A stretch of 64,000 nt of DNA, taken from Phycisphaerales bacterium. Lineage in GTDB: Bacteria; Planctomycetota; Phycisphaerae; Phycisphaerales; UBA5793. Under the pieces are notes generated by a model. It was not told the DNA's origin and ran no database searches. It saw only the letters and a list, made by a program, of their open reading frames with translations. Within the stretch, counting starts at the first letter, position 1. Each line of letters opens with the position of its first letter. This document shows positions 11,923 through 14,315 of this stretch, piece by piece. The stretch covers positions 248,001 through 312,000 of the forward strand of contig JADZAS010000002.1 of assembly GCA_020852515.1 (NCBI GenBank), in the 5' to 3' direction. Both the position numbers and the translations under genes were made by a program.

Positions 11923-12687
11923 GTGCCGCGCAAGCCGATCGTTGGCGGGAACTGGAAGATGAACACCAACCGCGGCTCGGCGGCGTCGCTCGCCTCGGCC
12001 GTGGCGTCGGCTCATCAGGCCGATGCGGGGGTCGAAGTCGTCATCTTCCCGCCTTTCCCCTACCTGCTCGAAGTCGGCCGAGCGATCAACGGTTCCGCGG
12101 TCGTGCTTGGCGCCCAGGACGTCTGCTGGGAAACCGACGGCGCGTTTACCGGGGAGGTCAGCGCCGCGATGCTGCGCGACTGCGGCTGCCGTTGGGTGCT
12201 CACCGGCCACAGCGAGCGGCGGCACGTCATCGGCGAAGATGATGCACTCGTCAACCGCAAGACCAGGGCGGCTCTGGCGGCCGGGCTCAGCGTCATTCTC
12301 TGCATAGGTGAGACCCGCCAGCAGCGCGAAGCGGGCGAGACAGATGAGATCAACGCCCGACAACTCACTGCCGGCCTGGACGGCGTCTCAGCCTCGCAAT
12401 CGGGGCGCATCGTGATCGCCTACGAGCCGGTCTGGGCGATCGGGACGGGCCTGACCGCCACGCCCGACGACGCCCAGACGGCGCACGCGGCCGTTCGCGC
12501 GACGTTGGGAGAGATCTTCGATCCGAGCACCGCTGCGGCGATGCGGATCCAGTACGGCGGGTCGATGAAGCCGGGGAATGCGGCCGGGCTGATGAAAATG
12601 CCGGATGTCGATGGCGGATTAATCGGTGGCGCCTCGCTCAACGCGGGGGATTTCAGCGCTATTGTTCAGGCTGCCGTTCGGGCCTGA
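11923..12687 (+). CDS. tpiA: Triosephosphate isomerase
   Basis: Interconverts dihydroxyacetone phosphate and glyceraldehyde 3-phosphate. The 254-residue product shows the complete TIM signature: GGNWKMN with the catalytic Lys12, LTGHSERR with catalytic His96, AYEPVWAIGTG with catalytic Glu168, and YGGSMKPGNA for phosphate binding, followed by GLIGGASL. A textbook Shine-Dalgarno AGGAGG (11912-11917) lies 5 nt before the GTG at 11923, which fixes the start even though the frame stays open far upstream. secG follows after 58 bp, the pairing tpiA-secG being common in bacteria. Confidence 0.97.
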   Translation: MPRKPIVGGNWKMNTNRGSAASLASAVASAHQADAGVEVVIFPPFPYLLEVGRAINGSAVVLGAQDVCWETDGAFTGEVSAAMLRDCGCRWVLTGHSERRHVIGEDDALVNRKTRAALAAGLSVILCIGETRQQREAGETDEINARQLTAGLDGVSASQSGRIVIAYEPVWAIGTGLTATPDDAQTAHAAVRATLGEIFDPSTAAAMRIQYGGSMKPGNAAGLMKMPDVDGGLIGGASLNAGDFSAIVQAAVRA

Positions 12688-12745: not shown

Positions 12746-13405
12746 ATGGCTGTGCTTTCCGTTATTCTGTCACTGCTGTTCATCATCGTCGCCGTGGCGC
12801 TGATTCTGGTCATTCTCGTCCAGCGGCCGCAGGGCGGCGGGCTCGCGGGGGCGTTTGGTGGCGTGGGCGGCGCCAGTAGCCAGTCGGCCTTCGGCGCCAA
12901 GACTGGCGACATGCTCACGTTCGCGACCGTCGCGATGTTTGTGCTCTTCCTTCTGACCTCCATGGGCATGGTCTGGCTGAACCAGGCTCAGTTTGGCGCG
13001 TCCACTCCGGCCCCGCCCGACCCGCCGAGCAATCTGGCCGTCACCATCATCTCGCCGACCGAGGCTCGCCTCACCTGGAAGGACAACTCCAAGAACGAGA
13101 CCGGGTTCTTCATCGAGCGGTCGGAGGACGGTCTGACCGGCTGGACCGAAATCGGCAATGTGGATGCGGAAGCGATCACGTTCACCGACCAGAACCTCGA
13201 GCCGGAATCGACCTACTTCTACCGCGTCTCGGCTCGCAACACCGAAGGTCCATCGACGGCTACGGAGGCGATCAACATCACCCTCCCGGCGGCGGAGGCG
13301 CAGCCTGCGGAAGGTGAAGACGGAACCAGCGAAGAAGCACCACCCACTGGAGCCGAGCCCGGCGGCAATCCCGCCGGCCAACCGGCCGAGGATGACGGCA
13401 ACTGA
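12746..13405 (+). CDS. secG: SecG translocase subunit fused to a fibronectin type III domain
   Basis: SecG is the small SecYEG subunit that helps the SecA cycle. Residues 1-90 are a normal SecG: a first membrane helix, VQRPQGGGLAGAFGG, the Ser/Gln loop SSQSAFGAKTGD, and a second helix ending in GMVWLNQ. Ordinary SecG stops near 75-110 residues. Here a Pro-rich linker leads into a fibronectin type III domain (about 92-175: PSNLAVTII, ARLTWKDNSKNETGFFIERS, TYFYRVSARN) and an acidic Pro/Glu tail, total 219 residues. SecG of E. coli has both termini outside, so the added domain should face the periplasm. An AGAGGTGG ribosome site precedes the ATG at 12746. The fused domain was not expected from the SecG family and is reported as a finding. 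Confidence 0.92.
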   Translation: MAVLSVILSLLFIIVAVALILVILVQRPQGGGLAGAFGGVGGASSQSAFGAKTGDMLTFATVAMFVLFLLTSMGMVWLNQAQFGASTPAPPDPPSNLAVTIISPTEARLTWKDNSKNETGFFIERSEDGLTGWTEIGNVDAEAITFTDQNLEPESTYFYRVSARNTEGPSTATEAINITLPAAEAQPAEGEDGTSEEAPPTGAEPGGNPAGQPAEDDGN

Positions 13406-13424: not shown

Positions 13425-14315
13425 GTGATCCGATCGATGACCGGTTTCGGCGAAGCGGCAACGGAAGTGCAGTCCGTCCACTACGCCGTCGAATTGCGCT
13501 CGATCAACAACAAGTTCTACAAGGCGGCCATTCGACTGCCGGAAGAACTCGAGGGGATGGAGGCGGAGATCGATAGCCGGCTGCGCCGCCGGCTCGTGCG
13601 CGGGTCGATCACGCTGAAAGTGCGGATTTCGGACCCGACCGCCCGCGCCGCCTACCGAATCAATACCGAAGCGCTGCAGTCCTACATCGAATACCTCGGC
13701 CGACTGCCTCACGAAGTCGGCCATCCCGTGCCCATCGACGTGGCGGCGCTCATCCAGTTGCCCGGAGTGCTCCAGCCGCCCGACGATTTCGAATCGCGCG
13801 TCGACACCGCCCGGCCGATCATCCACGACCTGATCGAGCGGGCGTGCGACCGACTCATCGAAATGCGCGACCGCGAAGGCGCCATGCTTCATCAGGACCT
13901 CCACCGGCACCACGGCGCCATCGTGGAGCGTCTCGAGGGCATTGCCCGCCGCACGCCCCTGGTGGTCGAGGAATACCACCAGCGCCTGCGGCAGCGGATC
14001 GAATCGATGCTCAAGGACGCGTCGGTGCACGTGAACGAGACCGATCTCGTGCGAGAAGTGGCGATCTACGCCGAACGCAGCGACATCGCCGAAGAGATTA
14101 CCCGGCTCAACGCGCACCTGAGCCAGTTTCGCGACCTCATTGACTCGAAAGACTGCGAGCCCATCGGCCGCACGCTCGATTTCCTTGCACAGGAACTGCT
14201 CCGCGAAGCGAACACGATCGCCAGTAAGTCCAACGATTCGCAGATCAGCCGCGATATCGTGGAGGTAAAAGGAGCGATCGATCGCATCAAGGAGCAGGTA
14301 CAGAACGTAGAGTAG
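13425..14315 (+). CDS. YicC/YloC-type endoribonuclease
   Basis: The product (296 residues from GTG 13425) begins VIRSMTGFGEA, the hallmark N terminus of YicC/YloC proteins, has ELRSINNKFYK and ends with IRNDI-like SRDIVEVKGAIDRIKEQVQNVE. YicC of E. coli (287 residues) is an endoribonuclease acting on small RNAs and stress-linked transcripts; YloC of Bacillus is a homologue. The alternative ATG at 13392 overlaps the secG stop and gives an atypical N terminus; ATG 13437 would remove the conserved IRS. The gene follows secG with a small separation and precedes the kinase gene at 14327 by 11 bp. Confidence 0.9.
   Translation: MIRSMTGFGEAATEVQSVHYAVELRSINNKFYKAAIRLPEELEGMEAEIDSRLRRRLVRGSITLKVRISDPTARAAYRINTEALQSYIEYLGRLPHEVGHPVPIDVAALIQLPGVLQPPDDFESRVDTARPIIHDLIERACDRLIEMRDREGAMLHQDLHRHHGAIVERLEGIARRTPLVVEEYHQRLRQRIESMLKDASVHVNETDLVREVAIYAERSDIAEEITRLNAHLSQFRDLIDSKDCEPIGRTLDFLAQELLREANTIASKSNDSQISRDIVEVKGAIDRIKEQVQNVE

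Follow-up and report, generated by a model that had tools for sequence, protein, structure and literature searches.

A fibronectin type III domain fused to SecG in one family of uncultured Planctomycetota

Introduction

SecG is the smallest component of the protein-export channel. It has two transmembrane (TM) helices with a cytosolic loop between them (PMC8082313), an arrangement that places its C-terminus outside the membrane. During translocation in E. coli, SecG has been reported to invert its membrane topology (PMC9437254, PMC7156725), an inversion for which, according to a review, crystal structures gave no explanation (PMC9437254); a cryo-EM study described SecG as weakly attached and dynamic (PMC6776908). 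A typical SecG stops soon after TM2 or, in the order Phycisphaerales, ends in a disordered tail. The closest described case in which a soluble periplasmic domain is placed beside SecG, at the exit of the channel, is the E. coli PpiD-YfgM pair (PMC9643414).

Here we analyze a SecG gene in a 64,000-nucleotide stretch (the window) from a Phycisphaerales bacterium. Its product resembles bacterial SecG (PF03840, TIGR00810) in having two TM helices, conserved loop motifs, a single copy, and a tpiA-secG context, but differs in adding an immunoglobulin-like fibronectin type III (FN3) domain and a long acidic tail after TM2. It also differs from PpiD-YfgM, which are separate proteins with PPIase-like and TPR domains and no FN3, whereas the FN3 of the window protein is covalently part of SecG; the likeness to PpiD-YfgM is one of place and not of homology. 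SecG-FN3 in this family of uncultured Planctomycetota represents a modest, real, conserved, and lineage-restricted domain addition, for which the role proposed below is inferred.

Gene layout and predicted structure

The gene and its neighbors, all on the plus strand, are laid out as follows (window coordinates):

11935..12687, +, tpiA (triosephosphate isomerase; PF00121, E 7e-92), 58 nt upstream of secG-FN3; start approximate
12746..13405, +, secG-FN3 gene, 219 aa, single copy in the genome
12746..12985, +, SecG core, aa 1-80: TM1, loop with QRPQGGG and FGAKTGD motifs, TM2 (PF03840, TIGR00810)
12986..13015, +, variable linker, aa 81-90, poorly conserved between relatives
13016..13279, +, FN3 domain, aa 91-178 (PF00041 profile, predicted fold, PDB matches)
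13280..13402, +, acidic disordered tail, aa 179-219 (charge count, low pLDDT); an order-wide SecG feature
13437..14315, +, yicC-like endoribonuclease gene (PF08340/PF03755), 31 nt downstream of secG-FN3

The secG-FN3 frame runs from an ATG at 12746, preceded by a ribosome-binding-like stretch (AGAGGTGG), to a TGA at 13403-13405 without an internal stop. Both halves of the protein exceeded curated profile cut-offs. The SecG part matched Pfam PF03840 over aa 7-77 (E 3.4e-14; 53.1 bits vs a cut-off of 29.2) and NCBIfam TIGR00810 (53.4 bits vs 30.85), and Pfam PF00041 (fn3) matched aa 92-176 (E 7e-10; 39.4 bits vs 25). Hydropathy was maximal in both predicted SecG helices.

An AlphaFold model built from an alignment of six homologues contained two helices (residues 2-25 and 46-84, with low confidence around the loop), followed by a sandwich of seven strands between residues 95 and 179 in a block with pLDDT 90-97; pLDDT fell below 50 in tail residues 190-219. 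The PDB matches listed by Foldseek were all FN3 domains, the best being FN3con (1.6e-08). The single frame, the two profile matches, and the predicted fold confirm the SecG-FN3 fusion recognized in the initial annotation of this DNA. The layout given there also stands, except that the SecG part had been assigned 90 residues: the profile match ends at about residue 77-80, the second helix extends to about residue 84, and the linker is about ten residues long. The acidic tail noted there was likewise borne out, the 41 residues from 179 to 219 including ten acidic and no basic ones.

The charge pattern of the protein—an uncharged N-terminus, a net basic loop, and a strongly acidic tail—agrees with an outside C-terminus. 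Given the established topology of SecG, and in keeping with this charge distribution, we infer that the FN3 domain lies outside the membrane.

Genomic context

The order tpiA-secG-yicC was found in all six genomes of the family and is kept by most other members of the order too; yicC is conserved 3' of secG in almost every relative compared. SecG, SecY, and YidC each occur once in the genome, and SecDF is represented by one 1271-aa frame plus two weak matches elsewhere in the genome. No second, plain secG was found in the genome. This single set of Sec components indicates that SecG-FN3 is the working SecG and not a spare copy.

A side observation concerns the +1 frame of yicC (window 13438-14312), whose translation is still 33-87% identical to those of relatives. 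The probable cause is the codon bias of high-GC DNA, and such matches can mislead frame calling.

Conservation within the family

The fusion was present in 6/6 family genomes examined, which belong to two genera and come from separate assemblies. Full-length identities of the five relatives to the window protein were 94, 76, 71, 68, and 44%. Relatives in genome_contigs came from assemblies labelled Planctomycetota/Phycisphaerales or uncultured planctomycete (KLAP200, UBA5793, PLA5, PNC21), apart from PLA1, which is labelled otherwise. The PLA1 genome (contig WYBR01000096.1, L089) is titled Vicinamibacteraceae, but it carries the planctomycete SecG-FN3 described here, and its TpiA shares 75% identity with that of the window; its public label looks wrong.

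Neither of the two observations that the initial annotation held to speak against a fusion, a frameshift splitting the two parts and its absence from close relatives, was encountered: the frame was continuous in six genomes, and every close relative carried the fusion. That an assembly or gene-prediction error, such as a frameshift or a missed stop, had joined two genes can be regarded as a negligible prospect, for which we found no supporting evidence and against which stands the same continuous frame in separate assemblies.

The FN3 domains of four of the five relatives passed the PF00041 cut-off. The exception, in genome G005, scored 14 bits (E 0.06), but a profile made from the other genus alone found it with an E of 1.7e-13 (within the set of SecG tails). 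A predicted model of the G005 protein had seven strands and FN3 matches in the PDB, the alignment behind this model including the clearer members.

In codon comparisons within the genus, omega was 0.03-0.16 in the SecG core and 0.05-0.41 in the FN3 domain, the second genus being too diverged for the comparison to be read. These values show purifying selection acting, within the genus, on the part of the gene that encodes FN3; this part changes faster than the SecG core does. The linker and tail are hypervariable among family members.

Distribution outside the family

We compared 57 distinct SecGs in full, six from the SecG-FN3 family and 51 from other families. Beyond TM2, the 51 carried tails with a median length of 77 aa (range 15-104) that were rich in P, A, D, and E, and some were helical; an FN3 profile matched none of them, even at E 10. 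Because these proteins have tails without FN3, the acidic tail is a trait of the wider group and FN3 is the addition. Similarly, since long acidic tails are general in the SecGs of this order, only the FN3 domain sets the window SecG apart. The sequence comparison thus indicates that the disordered SecG tail came first and that FN3 was later inserted at its base.

The initial annotation had called for a search for SecG homologues with a C-terminal FN3. These were found in the six family genomes, and searches of 397 genomes of the class and 392 of the phylum with a fusion profile gave no match spanning SecG and FN3 outside the family among the matches listed, which reach down to ~1e-15 and ~1e-19, so that a very divergent fusion could be missed. 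The other rows listed covered the SecG part or the FN3 part, apart from the following exceptions. Two long matches were rejected as fusions: that in G030 (3-149) has a helical, LEA-like tail, and that in G388 (31-210) belongs to a frame of 1306 aa that lacks a SecG core. The matches in G065 and G824 run through stop codons. A pattern scan of genome_contigs returned only family members as full-length matches, and nothing was found in viral_contigs. Rare or divergent SecG-FN3 proteins may exist elsewhere, because the listed matches are limited and other phyla were covered by the pattern scan only. The literature searched, which included few subscription journals, yielded no description of a SecG-FN3 fusion or of any SecG bearing an additional folded domain.

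Such a distribution could arise if FN3 were a near-neutral decoration, i.e., if freely varying tails had captured a stably folding domain that was then kept as harmless. The great differences among SecG tails in the order (Pro/Ala-rich, acidic, helical repeats, FN3), the absence of FN3 from the other families examined, the hypervariability of linker and tail, and the faster evolution of FN3 are all consistent with this explanation, and selection for folding alone could account for the low omega. However, FN3 has been kept in every family genome, across two genera and with the within-genus omega values given above, whereas some losses would be expected were it useless. We consider near-neutrality somewhat unlikely.

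A different family of the order, chiefly genus g24 (L015 1207-1827 on the minus strand, L032, L037, L040), has another unusual SecG extension, a tail of ~100 aa that is an amphipathic LEA/apolipoprotein-like repeat (EAVKEGAAKAAEATGEAVDKAV...).

Possible function of the FN3 domain

We think it probable that the genome's normal and sole secG, which lies where it usually does, with tpiA before it and yicC after it, acquired an FN3 domain (in the simplest case a single time, in the family's ancestor) that serves as a passive, tethered docking or spacer module. The two helices would work as an ordinary SecG beside SecY, and FN3 would hang outside on its linker of ~10 residues, no more than a few nanometres from the channel exit. 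There it might dock an envelope partner, for example another translocon protein or a cell-wall protein, or hold the tail and its neighbors at a distance, and would not act as a chaperone for exported chains.

The initial annotation had suggested that the domain could receive exported chains. In a fuller form of this suggestion, FN3 would be a chaperone-like domain at the exit that contacts emerging polypeptides and aids their release or folding. Its likely location near the channel exit is in keeping with such a role, as is the cross-linking of the membrane-anchored periplasmic chaperone unit PpiD-YfgM to SecG in E. coli (PMC9643414), where accessory domains thus do operate at this site. Against it, the positions invariant in the six FN3 domains are mostly those of the generic FN3 core plus a D-N-S motif that also occurs in an FN3 protein encoded elsewhere in the genome and unrelated to SecG; the SecG core is slower to change than FN3; and the linker and tail are hypervariable. 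The suggestion of chain reception is therefore unsupported, and we judge a chaperone-like role very unlikely. Passive docking or spacing is preferred to chain reception because nothing in the invariant FN3 residues suggests a SecG-specific binding face. A docking module would itself be expected to have a conserved surface, but residue conservation among the six sequences, few as they are, revealed none specific to SecG, which would count as a point against docking.

With its outer end occupied by a folded FN3 domain and an acidic tail of 41 residues, the protein would be expected to be unable to invert. SecG-FN3 therefore offers a natural test of the topology-inversion model. A bolder reading, which we hold to be unlikely, sees FN3 as an integral periplasmic part of the translocon, which brings in an envelope assembly factor or acts on chains as they emerge. 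As a folded domain fixed in place outside, it would also make inversion impossible, so that Sec in these bacteria would work without an inversion cycle of the kind proposed for E. coli. More generally, the SecG C-terminus appears to be a site that tolerates lineage-specific periplasmic additions.

Origin of the FN3 domain

A single gain of FN3 in the family ancestor is the simplest reading, because the position of the domain and the gene context agree among members. On the other hand, there may have been two separate gains, since the G005 FN3 is slightly closer to the FN3 of another protein (37% identity) than to that of the window SecG (~31%). An FN3 tree was without resolution as to the origin of the domain.

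Just one further FN3 protein was found in the genome, a 1321-aa FG-GAP/FN3 protein (L170, 1420-5385, minus strand). Its FN3 (PF00041) shares with that of SecG-FN3 the fold, a W-x-D-N-S-type motif, and 37-44% identity, but it occurs as three repeats in a large, probably extracellular protein, unlike the single FN3 on a translocon subunit. The L170 protein also has an LEPR-x-LL-like N-terminal motif and FG-GAP repeats, and its FN3 domains have relatives in the other genomes of the genus.
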